From assembly GCA_013001755.1 (NCBI GenBank), contig JABDLY010000055.1, positions 1 through 38,461 on the forward strand: a stretch of 38,461 nucleotides of DNA, written 5' to 3'. The DNA is from Sphingomonadaceae bacterium (lineage in GTDB: Bacteria > Pseudomonadota > Alphaproteobacteria > Sphingomonadales > Sphingomonadaceae). Positions 19,316 to 32,792 of this stretch are shown here, piece after piece. The translations under genes were made by a program, and so were the position numbers. Position 1 is the first letter of the stretch; every line of letters begins with the position of its first letter. The notes under the pieces are model-generated. The model ran no database searches, was not told the DNA's origin, and saw only the letters and a list, made by a program, of their open reading frames with translations.

Positions 19316-20500
19316 ATGTTCTTTTCCTTCATCGACGAGCTTCGCGAGGCCGGGATTCCGGCGACAGTCAAGGAGCATCTCACCTTGCTCGATGCGCTCG
19401 ACAAGGATGTGATCGAGCGCAATCCGGAAGATTTCTACTATCTCGCCCGCGCGACCTTCGTGAAGGATGAGGGGCTGCTCGACCGTTTCGACCAGGTGTT
19501 CGGCAAGGTCTTCAAGGGCATCATCACCGATTATGGCGAGGAGACTGCCGAGATCCCCGAAGAGTGGCTGCGCGCGGTCGCCGAGAAATATCTTTCCGAA
19601 GAAGAGATGGCCGAGATCGAGAAACTTGGCTCATGGGAAGAGATCATGGAGACGCTCAAGGAGCGGCTCGAGGAACAGCAGGAGCGCCATGAGGGTGGCA
19701 ATAAATGGATCGGCACCGGCGGCACGTCGCCTTACGGGCATTCGGGCTACAATCCCGAAGGCGTTCGGATCGGCGGCAAGGGCAAGCATGGCAAGGCGGT
19801 GAAAGTCTGGGAAAAGCGCGAATTCCAGAATCTCGACCACACCAAGGAACTCGGCACGCGCAACATCAAGGTCGCGCTCCGGCGGTTGCGCAAATTCGCC
19901 CGCGACGGCGCGCAGGACGAACTCGATATCCCATCGACGATCGACGGCACCGCGAAGAAGGGCTGGCTCGATATCCATATGCGCGCCGAGCGCCGCAACG
20001 CGATCAAGGTCCTGCTCTGCCTCGATGTCGGCGGCTCGATGGATCCGCATGTGAAGATTTGCGAGGAATTGTTCAGCGCGGCGACGAGCGAGTTCAAAAA
20101 TCTCGAATTCTTCTACTTCCACAACTGCCCCTATGAAGGGCTATGGAAGGACAACCGCCGGCGCTTTTCCGAGCGCACGCCGACCTGGGACGTGCTTCAC
20201 AAATACGGCCATGACTATAAGCTCGTCTTCGTTGGCGACGCCTCGATGAGCCCCTATGAAATCACCCATCCGGGCGGTTCGGTCGAGCATTTCAACGAGG
20301 AATCCGGCTCCACCTGGATGCACCGTCTCACCAACACCTACCCCGCTGCCGCCTGGCTCAACCCCGTGCCCGAAGATCACTGGGCCTATTCGCAAAGCAC
20401 CAAGATCATCCGCGAACTGATGAACAACCGCATGTACCCGCTAACGCTCGATGGATTGGACGATGCGATGCGGGAGTTGACACGCAAGCACGGGGCTTAA
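19316..20500 (+). CDS. VWA domain-containing (CoxE-like) protein
   Basis: MFFSFIDELREAGIPATVKEHLTLLDAL...LCLDVGGSMDPHVKICEELFSA...KLVFVGDASMSPYEI. Confidence 0.88.
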   Translation: MFFSFIDELREAGIPATVKEHLTLLDALDKDVIERNPEDFYYLARATFVKDEGLLDRFDQVFGKVFKGIITDYGEETAEIPEEWLRAVAEKYLSEEEMAEIEKLGSWEEIMETLKERLEEQQERHEGGNKWIGTGGTSPYGHSGYNPEGVRIGGKGKHGKAVKVWEKREFQNLDHTKELGTRNIKVALRRLRKFARDGAQDELDIPSTIDGTAKKGWLDIHMRAERRNAIKVLLCLDVGGSMDPHVKICEELFSAATSEFKNLEFFYFHNCPYEGLWKDNRRRFSERTPTWDVLHKYGHDYKLVFVGDASMSPYEITHPGGSVEHFNEESGSTWMHRLTNTYPAAAWLNPVPEDHWAYSQSTKIIRELMNNRMYPLTLDGLDDAMRELTRKHGA

Positions 20501-20531
20501 AGCATCTCCTAAAATGACGACGGCGCGGTAG

Positions 20532-21284
20532 CTATTGAGGCCGCTCGCTTCGCGCAATCGCTTTCGCCATCCTGCGTGCGGCAATTTCGTGGCTCTGCGG
20601 TGTCAGATGAACGGTATCGCGCAACGGTAGATCGAACGTCGACGTCGCGACCTCGATACCCGGCATCGCCGCGGCAACACGGCGCTGCGCAGCACGGACG
20701 AGGACAGCGCCTGCGTCCGCCCTTCCTCCGGGCGGCAACAGCTGGCCAAGCTCCTGGATATAAACGCATTCGCAATCGCAAAGCCGCTGCAATCGGCGCA
20801 AGACCGTTTCGAGCGTTCGCACGTAGATTTCGAAATGCGCGTCGCCGAGATGAATCGCATCGGCTTCGCCCTGCGCCCAGATGATCCCACGAAAGGCAAT
20901 GCCCTGTTTTTTCCGCCATCGTTCAATACGCGCCAACGCCATTTCCATCGGCCGACCGAATCGGCCTGATGCCGGATCGAACCAGAAATTCTCTTTCATC
21001 TGTGCGCAGAGCTTCCGATCCGCAGCATATTCCTGCGCGTTAAGCCGCGCGAACTCGGCAAGCAGCGCCGATCCTCCGCGAAACGCCGGGAAGAATTCAA
21101 CCGCCGAGCAATTCGGCGACAACGAGAGAAATTGCTCCCTAAAGGCGGCGAGCGCCGAAGCGTTTTCCGGCTCCTGCCACGCGCCGATATTCGATTGACC
21201 GGCGAGCAGGAAATTCGCCTGCCGATCGCCCGCTCTTGCGTTTCGAGCGTGGGGCAACATGGTGAAGAGGTCCCGAAAGCGCAT
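20532..21284 (-). CDS. SGNH/sialate O-acetylesterase (SASA)-like hydrolase
   Basis: LLAGQSNIGAW, IIWAQGEADAIHLGD, LRDTVHLTPQSHEIAARRM: GQSN, QGE(A/S)DA and DxVHL motifs. Confidence 0.7.
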   Translation of the reverse strand: MRFRDLFTMLPHARNARAGDRQANFLLAGQSNIGAWQEPENASALAAFREQFLSLSPNCSAVEFFPAFRGGSALLAEFARLNAQEYAADRKLCAQMKENFWFDPASGRFGRPMEMALARIERWRKKQGIAFRGIIWAQGEADAIHLGDAHFEIYVRTLETVLRRLQRLCDCECVYIQELGQLLPPGGRADAGAVLVRAAQRRVAAAMPGIEVATSTFDLPLRDTVHLTPQSHEIAARRMAKAIARSERPQ

Positions 21285-21326
21285 TCCGAATCAGCGTGTG
21301 TGGATTTCGAACGACACCCGGTGTTC

Positions 21327-21612
21327 TCACCGCGATTCTTTGTCGGGAGAAAACAGGATATAGTGATCGCCTGTCACTATTGTATCGTCCACCCATTCGC
21401 GAAGAACCGGGCTGGGGTTGATCGCATCGGTCGCCAGCATGCCGCGTTCATGTTCAGAAGGAAAATCGTGCCACAGCTCGTAATCGAAATAAATCCCCCG
21501 GATCGTCTTGAGCGCCAGCGCATGGAGTTGCCGGGGCTTGGTGGTCGCGGGCCGGGCCTTCGGGATCGATATCGCCGCCATGACAGAGTTCGCCGACAGG
21601 TTTGCGGCAAGC
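21327..21612 (-). pseudogene. Truncated, frameshifted C-terminal remnant of a DUF1343/NamZ-like gene
   Basis: Reading from 21612 on the minus strand: RKPVGELCHGGDIDPEGPARDHQA, then after a frame change RQLHALALKTIRGIYFDYELWHDFPSEHERGMLATDAINPSPVLREWVDD; compare the intact gene HKHAGELCNGVHIHAEGRAYDHQAFKPWRLQALAFKAIRRLYPDYELWRGKDFKYEYTKDVLAIDVINGGPQLREWVDD. Confidence 0.85.
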
Positions 21613-23055
21613 TCAGGCAGGCGGAAAAGCCTCGATCAGCGGGCCGATATGCTTCTCGTAATTGCGCCAGCGTCCGGAAGAGCTCTTATAGAGCGGCTGC
21701 CTGACTTGCCAGGCGCTCGCCGTGCGCACAGCGGTATCGGCCTTGTGCGGTTCCAGGCACGCATCCTCCCATTCGAGGCCGCAGAAATCGACGAGCGCGC
21801 GGATATGCGGTTCGGGATCGGCGACCAGCGCGTCGTAATCGAGCGTGTGGATGCTGTCCGGGTAGATTTCTCGCCAATGTGCCATCAGCCTCCGATAGTC
21901 GCGATACCAGTGGACGATTTGGCCGAGATCGATCGCGAAGGGCACGCCCGGCCCGAGGTTCGCGAAATACATGGCGAGACCATTATCGAGCGGATTGCGC
22001 GTCGTGTCGATGATTCGTGCGCCCGGGAACAGCCGCTTGATCAACCCGATATGGCGAAAATTATATGTCTGCTTATCGGTGACAAGATCGGCGCCGGGGC
22101 GAATCTTTTCCAGTTCGTCGAGATAATATCGGCGAAGCTCTTTGATCTTGCGATCGTCGGCGGCAGCGACATCGTCAGGATAGCGCGGGAAGCCCGTTTC
22201 GACGATCGCCAGGATCAGTTCGAGTTCGCCCCCCGTTGTGACCCGGCTGTGCCGCCCCAGAATTCGCTCGGTGAGGGTCGAGCCGGAGCGGAACATGCCG
22301 CAGATGAAGATCGGCCGTTCCGCTTCCGCGCCGCGCGGCTCGGGCGTCGAAAACGTCCTGATGATCTGCTTGGTAAATCGCGTTTCGAGCAAAGGATCAT
22401 AGGCGGCCTGCCCACGCTCCGCCTGGGCGGCTTGGTTGCCGGTGCGATAGGCGGCAAAGGCTTCGTCGTAATGGCCGGGAGAATCGAGAGCACGGCCCAG
22501 CGCGAAACCGATACCCGCCTTGTTGTCCAGCGAAACCCGCGAATCGGCGAGCAACTCCTGCATCCGTTTCAGCTTCGGGTGATCAGCGTCGTCAAAATCC
22601 GTCAGCTCGGCGAGGCGTGTCAGCGCAAGCGTATCGTCGGGATTTGCAGCCTGCGCCCTTTCGTAGGCCGCTTTGGCAGCTTCTTTGTCGCCGAGTTCCT
22701 CACAGGCCATGCCGAGATTGAGCAGCGCCGAAAAATAATCGGGCACGATCGCGAGCGCGGCGTCGAGCTCGGCCTTCGCTTCTTCGGGGTTGCTGAAGTG
22801 CTGGGCGCAAATAATAGCGCGGTTGAGGTGAATTTCCTCGGGCTTGTCGCCGCCGTGGTCGAGCGCTTGCTGGTAGGCGTCAAGCGCCTCGTCGAAGCGC
22901 CGGAGTTGACGCAGCGAATAGGCAAGGCGATGCCAGTGATTGCCCTTGTCCGGATCGATTGCGAGCAAACGCTCGAAGGCCTCCACCGCCTCTGAAAAGC
23001 GTCCGCTGTTGAAGTGGCCGAGCGCCGTGTTCTCCAAGTTTTCGACTTCACTCAT
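21613..23055 (-). CDS. TPR repeat plus sulfotransferase domain protein
   Basis: TPR-like N-terminus (GHFNSGRFSEAVEAFERLLAIDPDKGNHWHRLAYSLRQL) and sulfotransferase PAPS-binding motif PIFICGMFRSGSTLTERILGRH. Confidence 0.9.
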   Translation of the reverse strand: MSEVENLENTALGHFNSGRFSEAVEAFERLLAIDPDKGNHWHRLAYSLRQLRRFDEALDAYQQALDHGGDKPEEIHLNRAIICAQHFSNPEEAKAELDAALAIVPDYFSALLNLGMACEELGDKEAAKAAYERAQAANPDDTLALTRLAELTDFDDADHPKLKRMQELLADSRVSLDNKAGIGFALGRALDSPGHYDEAFAAYRTGNQAAQAERGQAAYDPLLETRFTKQIIRTFSTPEPRGAEAERPIFICGMFRSGSTLTERILGRHSRVTTGGELELILAIVETGFPRYPDDVAAADDRKIKELRRYYLDELEKIRPGADLVTDKQTYNFRHIGLIKRLFPGARIIDTTRNPLDNGLAMYFANLGPGVPFAIDLGQIVHWYRDYRRLMAHWREIYPDSIHTLDYDALVADPEPHIRALVDFCGLEWEDACLEPHKADTAVRTASAWQVRQPLYKSSSGRWRNYEKHIGPLIEAFPPA

Positions 23056-23106
23056 ATCGCGGCGCTATCTAGGTTGCGGCAGGGAAACTGTCTACCGATG
23101 CTCCGA

Positions 23107-24312
23107 TTAGTAGAGCAGATGCGCTTTTCGCTTTTCAAGCCACGCCGTTTCGTCGGCTGATGTCATGCGCTCCAAGTCTTTCACCTCGGCCTCACTGTCA
23201 TCGACCCACTCGCGCAATTGCGGACCGCCATTTATCACATCGATCGCCAGCACGTCCTTGGTGTATTCATATTTGAAATCCTTGCCGCGCCATAGCTCAT
23301 AGTCCGGATAAAGCCGCCGGATCGCCTTGAAAGCCAGCGCCTGCAACCGCCAGGGTTTAAACGCTTGGTGATCATAAGCGCGGCCTTCGGCATGGATATG
23401 GACTCCATTGCAGAGTTCGCCCGCATGTTTGTGGAAAGTCGGTTCGAACCAGATTTCACGCAATGTACAGCCCGTGAGCCATTCGGGCGCGACGCGCTCC
23501 ATTTCGTTCAACACCGCCCGCGCATCGATATCGGGTGCGCCGAAGATTTCGAGCGACCGCGTCGTCCCCCTGCCCTCGCTCAGCGTCGTGCCTTCGAGCA
23601 TTACAGTCCCGGCATAGGCGCGCGCCATCGAGAGGTTGGGCGCATTGGGACTGGGGTTGACCCAGATGCGCTCGCCCAACGGCCATCCGAAGCCCGGCGC
23701 GACCTCGGGTGCCCAGCCCTCCATTTCGATGACGCGATAATCGACATCGAGGCTGAGGTGATCGATAAACCAGTGGCCAAGCTCACCCATCGTCAGCCCA
23801 TGCCGCATCGGCAGCAGCCCCGCGCCAACAAAGCTCTCCCATTCTTCGTGCAGCGTCAGCCCCTCGACCGGGCGCCCCGCCGGATTGGGGCGATCGAGCA
23901 CCCAGACAGCTTTGCCATGCTCGGCGGCGGCTTCGAGGGTGTAGCGCAGCGTCGTGATGAAGGTGTAGATACGGCAGCCAAGATCCTGGAGATCGATCAG
24001 GATCGTGTCGAACGTCCCCATCGATTGCCCCGTCGGGCGGCGGACTTCGCCATAAAGGCTGAACACCGGGATATTGTGAACCGGATCGGTGAAGTCATCG
24101 GTTTCGACCATATTATCCTGCTTGTCGCCCTTGAGGCCGTGCTGCGGGCCGAAAGCTGCGGTCAAATTGACGCCCGCCGCGACCAGCGCGTCGAGACTAT
24201 GGCTGAGGTCCGTGGTGACGGAAGCCGGATGGGCGAGCAAGGCGACGCGCTGGCCTTCGAGCGGATTGCGCAAGTCGGCGTCTTCGAGGAGGCGATCGAT
24301 ACCGAATTTCAT
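23107..24312 (-). CDS. DUF1343 / NamZ-like exo-beta-N-acetylmuramidase family protein
   Basis: MKFGIDRLLEDADLRNPLEGQRVALLAHPASVT...FGPQHGLKGDKQDNM...VFSLYGEVRRPTGQSMGTFDTILIDLQDLGCRIYTFITTL. Start at 24312 preferred because the upstream extension runs into an intergenic repeat. Confidence 0.9.
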   Translation of the reverse strand: MKFGIDRLLEDADLRNPLEGQRVALLAHPASVTTDLSHSLDALVAAGVNLTAAFGPQHGLKGDKQDNMVETDDFTDPVHNIPVFSLYGEVRRPTGQSMGTFDTILIDLQDLGCRIYTFITTLRYTLEAAAEHGKAVWVLDRPNPAGRPVEGLTLHEEWESFVGAGLLPMRHGLTMGELGHWFIDHLSLDVDYRVIEMEGWAPEVAPGFGWPLGERIWVNPSPNAPNLSMARAYAGTVMLEGTTLSEGRGTTRSLEIFGAPDIDARAVLNEMERVAPEWLTGCTLREIWFEPTFHKHAGELCNGVHIHAEGRAYDHQAFKPWRLQALAFKAIRRLYPDYELWRGKDFKYEYTKDVLAIDVINGGPQLREWVDDSEAEVKDLERMTSADETAWLEKRKAHLLY

Positions 24313-24444: not shown

Positions 24445-25005
24445 TTATGATGCGTCAGGCGCAGGAAGTTCGAGAGTAAAGCTATCAGGATGGTGGAAAT
24501 CGGGTTTATCCGTCGGATGGGAGAGTGCCCAATAGGACTTGTTTCCATTTCGCTCCTCGATAACGGCCGCAAGACCCAGTTCCCAGTTCATGTCGCGATA
24601 TGTTCGGGGCAGTTGCAGCAACGCATGAAGCTCCGCGTGCCGTTCCCTGACCCGCCAATTGGCTTGGATCAGACGTATATCGTCAACCCGCCGCATGCCC
24701 TCCCGATAGTCATAGAAAGCGTAAGCGGCCCAATCGCCCGACGTTGCAAAGTTGGTCTCAAGATAACACGGTTCCCCCACAGCCCGCCCGAATGCTTCGA
24801 AACAGCTATGCTTCCAGAGATCGTCGGATCGCTTCCAATTTTCGTGCCCGCTTCGATTGTCTCCCGGCCACCTTACTCTTTCCATACCCCCCGCTGCGAG
24901 GAAGCTTATAGCGATATGGTCGGGATCGCGTCGCGCGACATTTGCGCATAACGAAATCAACGCGTCCTGCGGAGTTTTTGGATGGGTTTCGAGCCAGATT
25001 TTCAT
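24445..25005 (-). CDS. DOMON-like domain-containing protein
   Basis: RSDDLWKHSCFEAFGRAVGEPCYLETNFATSGDWAAYAFYDYREGMR...ELGLAAVIEERNGNKSYWALSHPTDKPDFHHPDSFTLEL. Confidence 0.7.
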   Translation of the reverse strand: MKIWLETHPKTPQDALISLCANVARRDPDHIAISFLAAGGMERVRWPGDNRSGHENWKRSDDLWKHSCFEAFGRAVGEPCYLETNFATSGDWAAYAFYDYREGMRRVDDIRLIQANWRVRERHAELHALLQLPRTYRDMNWELGLAAVIEERNGNKSYWALSHPTDKPDFHHPDSFTLELPAPDAS

Positions 25006-26606: not shown

Positions 26607-26945
26607 ATGGGAGCGCAGCCCCTCGCCCAACATCTCTTCGACGTCGAAAAGCGGCGCGCGGAACGTGATGCAGTGTCTATCAAGGCCGAATTGCACGAAT
26701 CGGGCCAGGACGGCCATGAAGTGCTGATCGGCAATCTTTCGCCCTTCGGCTTTATGGCGATCTCGCCCGAAAGCTATCGTGAAGGTACGCTGGTCCGGCT
26801 CGAACTGCCGATGATCGGCGCGGTCAATGCGAAGATCGTCTGGTCGCTCAGCGATCGGATCGGTGCAGAATTTATCCGCCCGTTCGATGCCCGCGGCTAT
26901 CGCGAACTTCTCGATTCAACGCCGCGGCAGGCTGTCAACGACTAG
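26607..26945 (+). CDS. PilZ domain protein
   Basis: RRAERDAVSIKAEL (RxxxR) and GNLSPFGFM (NxSxxG); small single-domain protein. The ORF opens at 26571. Confidence 0.8.
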   Translation: MGAQPLAQHLFDVEKRRAERDAVSIKAELHESGQDGHEVLIGNLSPFGFMAISPESYREGTLVRLELPMIGAVNAKIVWSLSDRIGAEFIRPFDARGYRELLDSTPRQAVND

Positions 26946-29002
26946 CCCGAACGTAGCAAAGGCACAGCGGTATCGCGCTTGAACAGATAAAGTGCGATCC
27001 GCGCTGCCTCGCCGCGCGGACTATCGAGTCCGCCTTCGCGTTCGATCAGCAGCCGCGCATCGTCATTCGCCATCGGGGCAAGTTCCGCGACCAATTCGGG
27101 CGTCGCAAGCCGGAAGCCGACATCGCCCGACTGGCGCGTACCCAAAATCTCACCAGCGCCGCGTAACCGCAAATCCTCTTCTGCGATCCGGAAGCCGTCA
27201 TTGGTCTCGCGCATCAGCGCGAGACGCGCCCGCGCAGTTTCGGTCAGCGCCTCGCCGCGCAGCAACAGGCAGACCGATTTTGCGTCGCCGCGACCGACGC
27301 GGCCGCGGAGCTGGTGGAGCTGCGCAAGGCCGAAACGGTCAGCGCCTTCGACCACCATCAGCGTTGCGTTGGGGACATCGACACCGACTTCGATCACCGT
27401 CGTCGCCACGAGTACGGCTATCTGGCCGCGCTGGAAGGCGTCCATCACCGCGTCCTTTTCCGGCCCCTTCATCCGTCCATGGACAAGGCCGATGCGTTCA
27501 TCGCCGAAGCGCATTTTAAGCTCGCGCGCGCGTTCCTCAGCCGCTGCCTGGTCGATGGCCTCGCTCTCTTCAACGAGCGGACAGACCCAATAGGCCTGTC
27601 CATCGCTCGCAATATGCCGCCCCAATCCATCGACGACATCGGCAAGCCGAGCGCCCGAAATGACGCGCGTCTCTATCGGCTCGCGGCCTGGCGGCATTTC
27701 ATCGAGCCGCGACACATCCATCTCGCCATAATGGGTCAGCGTCAACGTGCGCGGGATCGGCGTCGCCGTCATCACCAGCAGATGCGGTGTCCGCTCGGCC
27801 TTTTGCGTCAGCATCATCCGCTGCGCGACACCAAAGCGATGTTGTTCGTCGACGACGGCGAGCGCGAGCTTCTTGTAGCGCACGGCCTCCTGGAAAATCG
27901 CATGCGTTCCGATCAATATGTCGATCGAACCATCGGCCAACCCCATCAAGGTGGACTCGCGTATCTTTCCCTTGTCGCGCCCGGTCAGCACCGCGATGTT
28001 GACCGGCAGACCCGCGAGCATCGCCGTCACTGTATCGAAATGCTGGCGCGCGAGGATTTCGGTCGGCGCGAGCAACGCTCCCTGCCCGCCCGCCTCGACC
28101 GCCATAAGCAGCGCCATCACCGCAACCAACGTCTTGCCCGAACCGACATCGCCCTGGAGCAGCCGCAACATCGGCTGTTCCTGCCGTACATCGGCTTCGA
28201 TCTCCGACACGGTCCGGCTCTGCGCGCCGGTTGGCGCATAGGGTAGCTGCAATGCGTCGCGCAGCTTGGGTTCGCCGAGCAGCGCTTCGCCTTTCCTGCT
28301 GCGCGACGATTGCCGAACGAGCGCCAGCGCCAACTGGTTGGCGAATATCTCGTCGTAGGCGAGGCGGCGGCGCGCGCCTTCGTTCGCCGGGTCGGCATGG
28401 ATTGCTTCGAGTGCGGCACGCCATGCCGGCCAGGTCTCGCGTTCGACCAGGCTCGGCTCGATCCATTCGGGCAGATCGACCAATCGCTCGCTCGCCTGCT
28501 CGATCAGCTGGCGCAGGCGGTTATTGGTGAGGCCATCGGACAGCGCATAGACGGGTTCACGCACCGGGATCGTACCGATCTTATCGGGCTCGAGTACGGT
28601 ATCGGGATGGACGATCTGGAGCTCCTGTCCATACATCTCCATCCGCCCCGAAATCGCCTTGGGCTCACCGAGCGGCAGCTGCTTGCGCGCCCAGCCCGGA
28701 TTGTTGAAATAGACAAGACTGAGATAATTGCCCGCCGCGTCGGTCGTCTGGACACGCAGCGGACTGCGCGGGCCACCGGCCTTATAGTCGACCGGCGTCA
28801 CGATCACCGCCACGACGCGCCCGGCATCTTCCATATCGAGCGTTTCGACGCGTTTGCGATCGATCCAGCCGGACGGCAGGTGGAACAGCAGATCGATGAT
28901 CTGCTCGAGCTTCAACCGGCCAAGCGGTTTGGCCAGAGCCTTGCCGACGCCCTTGAGCAGCTGAATTTCGGCAAACAGCGGATTGAGAATCTCCGGGCGC
29001 AT
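26942..29002 (-). CDS. recG: ATP-dependent DNA helicase RecG
   Basis: LLQGDVGSGKTLVAVMALL, VVDEQHRFGVAQRMML, VMTATPIPRTLTLTHYGEMDVS, LHQLRGRVGRGD. Confidence 0.97.
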   Translation of the reverse strand: MRPEILNPLFAEIQLLKGVGKALAKPLGRLKLEQIIDLLFHLPSGWIDRKRVETLDMEDAGRVVAVIVTPVDYKAGGPRSPLRVQTTDAAGNYLSLVYFNNPGWARKQLPLGEPKAISGRMEMYGQELQIVHPDTVLEPDKIGTIPVREPVYALSDGLTNNRLRQLIEQASERLVDLPEWIEPSLVERETWPAWRAALEAIHADPANEGARRRLAYDEIFANQLALALVRQSSRSRKGEALLGEPKLRDALQLPYAPTGAQSRTVSEIEADVRQEQPMLRLLQGDVGSGKTLVAVMALLMAVEAGGQGALLAPTEILARQHFDTVTAMLAGLPVNIAVLTGRDKGKIRESTLMGLADGSIDILIGTHAIFQEAVRYKKLALAVVDEQHRFGVAQRMMLTQKAERTPHLLVMTATPIPRTLTLTHYGEMDVSRLDEMPPGREPIETRVISGARLADVVDGLGRHIASDGQAYWVCPLVEESEAIDQAAAEERARELKMRFGDERIGLVHGRMKGPEKDAVMDAFQRGQIAVLVATTVIEVGVDVPNATLMVVEGADRFGLAQLHQLRGRVGRGDAKSVCLLLRGEALTETARARLALMRETNDGFRIAEEDLRLRGAGEILGTRQSGDVGFRLATPELVAELAPMANDDARLLIEREGGLDSPRGEAARIALYLFKRDTAVPLLRSG

Positions 29003-29070: not shown

Positions 29071-29337
29071 ATGGACCGCGAAACCCGTCTCAAGCGCCTG
29101 TACTTCCGTGCCTGGCACCGCGGCACCAAGGAAGCCGATATGTTGATCGGCGGCTTTTTCGATACATATTCAGCGAGTTGGGGCGATGACGAGATCGACT
29201 GGTTCGAAGCGCTGCTCGATGTCGACGATGTTTCGATCATGGCTTGGGCGATCGGCACCGAGACACCGCCCGAAGCATTCACCGGCGCGATGATGCAGCA
29301 AATGCAGAAGCTCGATTACATTGCGGTACCCAAGTGA
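29071..29337 (+). CDS. sdhE: Succinate dehydrogenase assembly factor 2 (SdhE)
   Basis: MDRETRLKRLYFRAWHRGTKEADMLIGGFFDTYSASWGDDEIDWFEALLDVDD: RGxxE-like motif (here RGTKEAD). Confidence 0.92.
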   Translation: MDRETRLKRLYFRAWHRGTKEADMLIGGFFDTYSASWGDDEIDWFEALLDVDDVSIMAWAIGTETPPEAFTGAMMQQMQKLDYIAVPK

Positions 29338-32300
29338 ACGACATCCAGAAAATTCTCGACGCCAAAGAACCGCTGACGCTGTCGAGCGCGCCGGCCGGGT
29401 TCCTGCCCTGGTTGATGGCCGACATTGCACGCTCGGCGGCTTTTGCGGGCGGCCGGGCCATCTACATTGCGCCCGACGAAGCCGCGATGCGCGGACTCGC
29501 CGATGCCGCGCGCTATTTCGCGCCCGAACTCGACATCGTCGAATTCCCCGGCTGGGATTGTCTGCCTTATGACCGCGCGAGCCCGAGCCTGCGCATCTCG
29601 TCCGAACGCCTGGCAGCGCTTCACCACCTGCAGAAAAAAAGCCAAGAGCCGCAGATTCTGGCGACGACGATCAGCGCGATCAGCCAGAGGACGCTTTCGC
29701 CTTTCCGTATTCGCCAGCTTGTCGCAACGCTAGCGCCCGGCGAGCGGATCGAGCGCGACGCGCTGACCGCCAAACTTCAGGCCAATGGCTATATCCGCAC
29801 CGATACCGTCGCCGATGCCGGCGAATATGCCGTGCGCGGCGGGATCGTCGATCTGTTTCCGTCGGGCGCGAAACAGGGATTGAGGCTCGATTTCTTCGGC
29901 GACGAGATCGATAGCATGCGCCGTTTCGACCCGGCCGATCAGCGGACCACCGGGCGCGTCGAGAGATTTACCCTGCTTCCCGCGTCCGAAGCCTTGCTCG
30001 ACGAAGAGAGCATAAAACGTTTTCGCGGCCGCTATCGCGAGATTTTCGGCGCGACGGCGACGGGCGATCCGCTCTATCAGGCGATCAGCGAAGGTCGGCG
30101 CCTTGCCGGTATGGAGCATTGGCTGCCGCTGTTCGAGGAATCGCTCGCGACGCTGTTCGACCACATCGATCCCGAGGATGTTCTTGTTCGCGATCCCGGC
30201 GTCGCAGCCGCAGCCGACGCGCGTTTCGATGCGATCTCAGATTATTACGCCAATCGCGACGCCGCGCGCAGCGCCGATCCCGGCAGCTACCGCCCGCTCG
30301 AAACCGCTTCGCTATACTTGTCGGCCAGTGATTGGGCACAGCGCATTGCCGAAACTCCGCTCCATATCGCAAGCCCCTATCGCGAACCTGATGCCCGGGC
30401 TGTCGTCGATTTCAACGTCAGCGGCGCTCGCGATTTTGCGCCGGAGCGCCAGGCCGGCGGGAATATCTACGAAGCCATTGTCGCTCATGTCGGCGCGCTG
30501 GAGAAGGATGGCAAGAAGGTTGTCCTGGCGAGCTACAGCATTGGCGCCCGCGAAAGGCTTTCCGGGTTGCTTGAGGAGCATGGCCTTAGCGGCGGCGCCC
30601 TTGTCGATAACTGGCAAGCAGCGCAGGGCAACAGCCCCGCACTCGCCGTCCTCCCGCTCGATCACGGTTTTACGACGCCCGATATCGCTCTGCTGACCGA
30701 GCAGGATATGCTCGGCGACCGGTTGCGCCGCCGCACGACGCGCAAGAAGGACGCCGACGCGTTTCTCAACGAACTGGCAACGCTCTCGCCGGGCGACCTC
30801 GTCGTTCACACCGAACACGGCATCGGGCGCTATGAGGGACTGACCTCAATCCCGGTCGGCAGCGCGCCGCATGATTGCGTGGCGCTCGAATATGCCGGCG
30901 GCGACAAGCTCTATGTGCCGGTTGAGAACCTCGATGTACTCTCGCGCTTTGGTTCTGCCGAAGGCGGCGGCACGCTCGACAAGTTGGGCGGCGAGGGCTG
31001 GCAGCGGCGCAAGGCGCGGATGAAGGACCGTATCCTCGAGATTGCCGGCGAGCTCGTCGCGACCGCCGCCAAGCGCGCGCTACGCAAGGCACCGTCGGCC
31101 GAACCGGATACGAGTTATGCCAGCTTTGTCGACCGCTTCCCCTATGCCGAAACCGACGATCAGGACCGCGCCATCGCACAGGTTATCGACGATCTCGGCA
31201 AGGGTACGCCGATGGATCGGCTCGTGTGCGGCGATGTCGGTTTCGGCAAGACCGAGGTTGCGTTGCGCGCGGCCTATGTCGCCGCGATGGCGGGTCTGCA
31301 AGTCGCCATAATCTGCCCGACGACCCTGCTCGCACGCCAGCATTATACCAGTTTCACCGATCGTTTCTCGGGATTCCCGATGAAGATCGGGCGGCTCTCA
31401 CGCCTTGTCCCGGCAGCCGAAGCTAAAAAAACACGCGAAGGGATCGCCGATGGTTCGATCGATATCGCCATCGGCACCCATGCCCTGCTCGCCAAATCGA
31501 TCGACTTCAAACGCCTCGGGCTCGTCGTGGTCGATGAGGAGCAGCATTTCGGCGTCGTCCACAAGGAACGCCTCAAGGCGATAAAATCGGATGTCCATGT
31601 GCTGACGCTGACGGCAACGCCGATCCCGCGGACGCTGCAAATGGCGATGAGCGGACTGCGCGAGCTTTCGGTTATCCAGACTCCGCCGATCGACCGGCTC
31701 GCGATACGAACCTATGTCATGCCCTGGGATCCGGTAGTGCTGCGCGAAGCCTTGCTGCGCGAACATTATCGCGGCGGGCAGAGCTTTTTCGTCGCTCCGC
31801 GCATCGGCGACCTTCCCGAGCTCGAAGATTTCCTGCGCGAATATGTCCCCGAAATCAGCTTCATCACCGCCCATGGCCAGATGCCGCCAACCGCAGTCGA
31901 AGAGCGGATGAGCGCCTTTTACGACAGGAAATACGATGTGCTGCTTTCGACGACGATCGTCGAGAGCGGGCTCGATATTCCATCGGCCAACACGATGATC
32001 ATCCATCGCGCCAATCATTTCGGCCTTTCGCAGCTTTACCAGCTGCGCGGGCGGATCGGGCGATCGAAGGAGCGTGCTTACGCCTATCTCACAACGCCCG
32101 CCGATCGCATTGTCACCGAAGCGGCGGACAAGCGCCTCAAAGTACTCTCCGATCTCGAAACGCTTGGCGCGGGTTTCCAGCTGGCGAGTCATGATCTCGA
32201 CCAGCGCGGCGCCGGCAATTTGCTCGGCGACGAGCAATCGGGCCACATCAAGGAAGTCGGCTTCGAACTCTACCAGTCGATGCTCGAGGACGCGATTGTA

Positions 32301-32792
32301 GCGGCCAAGGCCGGCGATGCGGGTATCGATTTGCCGGACGGCGATTTCTCGCCGCAGATCACCGTCGACGCGCCGATCCTGCTACCCGAAAATTACGTCC
32401 CCGATCTCGATCTGCGCATGGGGCTCTATCGCCGAATGAACGATCTCGAGGACCGACAGGAGGTCGAAGCCTTTGCCGCCGAACTGATCGACCGGTTCGG
32501 GCCGATTCCGGCACCAACGGAAAACCTGCTCAAGATCATAGAGACCAAGCTCAACGCCAAAGCCGCGAATGTCTCCAACATCGACGCCGGTCCGCGCGGC
32601 GCGCTGGTCAGTTTCTTCAACGAGAGCTTCCCCAATCCCGCCGGGCTGGTCGACTATGTCAAACGTCTCAAAGGCACGGCAAAGCTGCGGCCCGATCACA
32701 AGCTCGTCATCACGCGAAACTGGGGCGATCCGCAGGCGCGGCTCAACGGCGCGCTCCAGCTTTCCAAGGGGTTGGCCAAAGCTGCTGGTTAG
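29334..32792 (+). CDS. mfd: Transcription-repair coupling factor Mfd
   Basis: UvrB-like N-terminus, RNAP-interacting region (DLVVHTEHGIGRYEGL), helicase LVCGDVGFGKTEVALRAAYVAAMAG, LYQLRGRIGRSKERAYAYL. Likely GTG start at 29334 overlapping the sdhE stop. Confidence 0.97.
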   Translation: MNDIQKILDAKEPLTLSSAPAGFLPWLMADIARSAAFAGGRAIYIAPDEAAMRGLADAARYFAPELDIVEFPGWDCLPYDRASPSLRISSERLAALHHLQKKSQEPQILATTISAISQRTLSPFRIRQLVATLAPGERIERDALTAKLQANGYIRTDTVADAGEYAVRGGIVDLFPSGAKQGLRLDFFGDEIDSMRRFDPADQRTTGRVERFTLLPASEALLDEESIKRFRGRYREIFGATATGDPLYQAISEGRRLAGMEHWLPLFEESLATLFDHIDPEDVLVRDPGVAAAADARFDAISDYYANRDAARSADPGSYRPLETASLYLSASDWAQRIAETPLHIASPYREPDARAVVDFNVSGARDFAPERQAGGNIYEAIVAHVGALEKDGKKVVLASYSIGARERLSGLLEEHGLSGGALVDNWQAAQGNSPALAVLPLDHGFTTPDIALLTEQDMLGDRLRRRTTRKKDADAFLNELATLSPGDLVVHTEHGIGRYEGLTSIPVGSAPHDCVALEYAGGDKLYVPVENLDVLSRFGSAEGGGTLDKLGGEGWQRRKARMKDRILEIAGELVATAAKRALRKAPSAEPDTSYASFVDRFPYAETDDQDRAIAQVIDDLGKGTPMDRLVCGDVGFGKTEVALRAAYVAAMAGLQVAIICPTTLLARQHYTSFTDRFSGFPMKIGRLSRLVPAAEAKKTREGIADGSIDIAIGTHALLAKSIDFKRLGLVVVDEEQHFGVVHKERLKAIKSDVHVLTLTATPIPRTLQMAMSGLRELSVIQTPPIDRLAIRTYVMPWDPVVLREALLREHYRGGQSFFVAPRIGDLPELEDFLREYVPEISFITAHGQMPPTAVEERMSAFYDRKYDVLLSTTIVESGLDIPSANTMIIHRANHFGLSQLYQLRGRIGRSKERAYAYLTTPADRIVTEAADKRLKVLSDLETLGAGFQLASHDLDQRGAGNLLGDEQSGHIKEVGFELYQSMLEDAIVAAKAGDAGIDLPDGDFSPQITVDAPILLPENYVPDLDLRMGLYRRMNDLEDRQEVEAFAAELIDRFGPIPAPTENLLKIIETKLNAKAANVSNIDAGPRGALVSFFNESFPNPAGLVDYVKRLKGTAKLRPDHKLVITRNWGDPQARLNGALQLSKGLAKAAG

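Follow-up and report, generated by a model that had tools for sequence, protein, structure and literature searches.

The locus described here lies on contig JABDLY010000055.1 of a Sphingomonadaceae bacterium (GCA_013001755.1), of which positions 1 to 38,461 were analyzed as one stretch of 38,461 nucleotides (the window). Three genes follow one another on the minus strand: an intact resident NamZ gene (DUF1343; 23107-24312), an intact TPR-sulfotransferase gene (ST; Sulfotransfer_3; 21613-23055), whose C-terminus resembles that of the ST in congener G008, and a gene for a SASA-type carbohydrate esterase (PF03629; 20532-21284). Directly past the ST stop codon, on the same strand, a second NamZ gene is represented by a damaged 3' end (21291-21611), referred to below as the remnant. 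The junction between the two is abrupt and falls at the ST stop. Behind it, the first frame of the remnant reads GELCHGGDIDPEGPARDHQA, and after a frame change the second frame reads RQLHALALKTIRGIYFDYELW...LREWVDD. Both peptides match residues 295-373 of the intact NamZ.

Homology between the remnant and NamZ was seen in several searches. Using the intact protein as a query, tblastn recovered both peptides, with 61% identity over 23 amino acids and 56% over 55 amino acids in the other frame (joint E 9e-17). By blastn, the remnant matches the intact gene at 71% over 153 nt (E 3e-18). The preliminary description of this DNA had reported a truncated, frameshifted second NamZ-like gene of old divergence, and these searches and the alignments agree with it. 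Its statement that little nucleotide identity is left was mistaken, since the identity is 69-71%. In a whole-genome search, the remnant was the only second NamZ match in its own genome (E 4.7e-12), and matches to NamZ genes of other family genomes reached an E value of 4.9e-19. The NamZ_N and NamZ_C Pfam profiles gave no match to the remnant, which is detectable only against close relatives, whereas the intact gene scores above the Pfam cut-off with both.

The homology extends from about 21611 to 21291, roughly 320 bases and slightly beyond the span first described. An in-frame premature TGA is found at 21327-21329. Past it, a weak alignment runs on to a ghost stop codon at 21291-21293, which corresponds to the NamZ terminus. 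The remnant aligns with the final ~110 residues of NamZ_C in members of the NamZ exo-beta-N-acetylmuramidase family (DUF1343; PF07075 and PF20732). Unlike these members, it lacks the N-terminal domain, is frameshifted, contains a stop codon and has lost invariant residues.

The remnant has decayed substantially. In a codon alignment with the intact NamZ, the frameshift is caused by a deletion of 8 nt between 21536 and 21537, rather than by the loss of about 5 nt near 21530-21540 that was first proposed. Of 41 invariant residues, 15 are lost in the remnant, compared to three in the worst of 42 intact homologs. At conserved nucleotides, the remnant has 8 private changes at first and 11 at second codon positions, while the intact genes printed have 0-2. 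Differences between the remnant and the intact copy amount to 0.28, 0.24 and 0.39 at codon positions 1, 2 and 3. The corresponding values for an intact pair are 0.11, 0.08 and 0.46, and intact congeners at equal third-position divergence show about 0.12 and 0.08 at the first two positions. Together with the loss of invariant residues, this pattern indicates that constraint on the remnant has been relaxed across much of its history. Truncation, a disrupted frame and signs of relaxed constraint are all present, and on this sequence evidence we classify the remnant as a pseudogene. It has no function itself and leaves the picture of NamZ biology unchanged.

Gene content at the same position was then compared among relatives. 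All nine congeners carry one NamZ each, 77-83% identical to the intact copy in the window, and no second complete NamZ was found in these nine or among the 282 matching family genomes. On one side, the congener NamZ is flanked by a variable small gene, like that at 24445-25005 in the window, and farther out by a conserved gene (25057). The small gene gave no Pfam match. Window and congener versions of it share only 29-46% identity, compared to 65-90% for the adjoining genes, and the alleles of G001, G004, G007 and G008 are alike and differ from that of the window. On the other side, wherever the contig extends far enough, a conserved VWA gene is found (19316 in the window).

What lies between NamZ and the VWA gene varies. 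In G008, the gap contains ST alone (order NamZ-ST-VWA), and ST and VWA are separated by about 15 nt. It contains ST in G005 and G006, and the esterase plus another gene in G003. In other congeners, the gap genes are presumably a VIT1-like transporter or methyltransferase-type genes. No NamZ-like remnant was detected in this slot in the congeners, which have unrelated genes there. Adjacency of NamZ and ST recurs in G008, G005, G006, three Qipengyuania species and L130, so ST is an ordinary neighbor of the intact NamZ. The reverse order, ST followed by NamZ, was absent from 80 ST loci. Across this gap (20500-23107 in the window; L017-L025), many congeners carry differing genes, and no mobile-element gene was noticed inside it. 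A literature search on NamZ in sphingomonads returned nothing useful.

The esterase is rare. It was found in 2 of 401 family genomes, the window genome and G003, and the order and phylum samples beyond the family contained none. The G003 esterase, 47% identical to that of the window, is the single close relative among roughly a thousand genomes searched. In G003, the esterase sits directly behind NamZ and its ATG overlaps the NamZ stop codon. In the window, the esterase ATG (21284-21282) lies 6 nt after the ghost stop of the remnant. Given this overlap and the 6-nt spacing, the remnant and the esterase look like the end of one NamZ'-esterase unit, where NamZ' denotes the gene from which the remnant derives.

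The origin of the remnant was assessed from clade-specific characters and trees. A 6-nt insertion (LWRGKDF versus LWRDF) is common to eight core-clade NamZ genes, among them the intact copy in the window, and is missing from the remnant at 21467/21468. At positions diagnostic for core versus non-core NamZ, the remnant has the non-core residues DFP, E (for T) and G (for D), and about ten substitutions would be needed to reach this state from a core NamZ. The missing insertion and these residues suggest that the remnant probably comes from outside the core-genus clade. In a DNA tree from which the insertion columns were left out, the remnant falls just outside the core clade (82/77; the core itself, 97/88). 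Grouping the remnant with the NamZ of its own genome is 12 log units worse and is not rejected by the AU test (p 0.11, DNA), nor is grouping it with the core in the protein data (p 0.30). In the protein tree, the remnant branch (4.99) is too long to be informative.

The species tree was made from 22 selected non-overlapping ORFs, a few of which may be antisense or weakly conserved frames, and its minor branches are not relied on. It places the window genome, G003 and G008 at the base of the core clade, with 100/100 support against G005 and G006 and the branching among the three unsettled. The intact NamZ groups with those of G008 and G003, in agreement with this basal position. No mosaic breakpoints were detected in the intact NamZ or the VWA gene. 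From the tree placements and the non-core characters, the best reading is that the intact copy was inherited vertically and that the remnant is foreign, with the AU tests indecisive.

We consider it probable that the remnant is the 3' end (~110 codons) of a NamZ gene of foreign origin, that this xenolog came from a sphingomonad not belonging to the core-genus clade, and that the piece was imported together with the esterase behind ST and then decayed. The resident order would have been NamZ-ST-VWA, as in G008, and the incoming DNA from a related sphingomonad would have carried NamZ'-esterase, possibly followed by VWA. On one side, the incoming segment would have been joined illegitimately at the stop codon of ST; on the other, the exchange would probably have been completed by homologous pairing within the conserved VWA gene. 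The esterase would have been retained after joining. The 3' end of NamZ', lacking the catalytic N-terminal domain, would have been functionless and free to decay through the 8-nt deletion, the stop codon and many amino acid changes. The homology, the decay, the gene order of relatives and the non-core characters are observed, and around them we infer the direction of transfer, a single event and the anchoring role of VWA. A scar of this kind should show one homologous and one illegitimate junction around a foreign insert. The remnant is of foreign type and adjoins the ST stop abruptly, while the VWA gene shows no visible recombination break. Searches with the esterase and remnant DNA found no donor of a NamZ'-esterase pair in the family, order and phylum samples, plasmids or viral contigs, with two viral matches at 23% identity. 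This lack of a donor counts against import, as do the unbroken VWA gene, the moderate tree support, the AU tests that do not reject alternatives and the position of the G003 esterase behind a core-type NamZ.

The main competitor, which we regard as unlikely though well short of negligible, is that the remnant is the resident gene's own end. A resident NamZ-esterase-VWA order, as seen in G003, would have received an incoming NamZ-ST. After recombination within NamZ or upstream of it, the incoming DNA would have been joined illegitimately inside the resident NamZ, so that the 3' end of the latter and the esterase came to lie further downstream. One event would yield the observed gene order, the logic is that published for displaced 3' ends at T6SS and Rhs loci (PMC5361080), and the exact branching of the window genome relative to G003 and G008 is not settled by the tree. 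However, the remnant is non-core, yet a core-type NamZ is present in all core-clade genomes, G003 and G008 among them, and the intact NamZ shows neither a foreign placement nor a mosaic.

The preliminary description had envisaged a former tandem pair of NamZ-like genes, with one copy destroyed when ST arrived or was rearranged. A tandem duplication of NamZ, or of NamZ-ST, within the lineage, after which one copy lost its 5' two thirds, would fit two similar sequences lying near each other on the same strand at 69-71% nucleotide identity. We nevertheless consider it improbable. Neither a second copy of the same lineage nor a relative with two copies was found, and the insertion would have to be lost and about ten substitutions would have to restore non-core residues. 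The likelihood deficit noted above also speaks against it, though at p 0.11 the phylogenetic side is not decisive. Destruction by an arriving ST is possible and is not favored, since NamZ and ST are recurrent neighbors. The truncated, frameshifted gene and its age stand, while the non-core characters and the esterase linkage point to import and not to a resident paralog that was lost. It is very improbable that the remnant encodes a short functional protein or serves as a retained leader of the esterase mRNA: the second frame does form an 84-aa ORF with an ATG start at 21581 (21327-21581), but G003 and all other relatives lack such an ORF, invariant residues have been lost and the frame arises from NamZ via the frameshift.

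Import behind ST would be the same type of event as that proposed for displaced 3' ends at Vibrio T6SS and Rhs loci, which leave orphan immunity genes after homology-facilitated illegitimate recombination (PMC5361080). Common to both are a 3' end stranded behind a newly joined neighbor and a variable slot beside a conserved anchor gene. In contrast to the Vibrio loci, the stranded piece here is a dead enzyme fragment rather than a retained immunity gene, and this is one case only. More tentatively, the NamZ-VWA gap may be a recombination slot whose conserved flanks anchor repeated exchange of cargo (ST, the esterase, the presumed VIT1-like transporter and the methyltransferase), with the remnant as the fossil of one exchange. 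The remnant is an ordinary kind of genome scar whose history is partly readable. Most likely it marks the import of a gene into a variable slot of the chromosome, next to which no mobile-element gene was noticed.

Elsewhere in the window, the large ORF at 29244-32792 shows 37-40% identity to the region of G003, G006 and G008 in which the homolog of 26942-29002 is encoded. From this match, the window genes 29244-32792 and 26942-29002 may have a domain in common.
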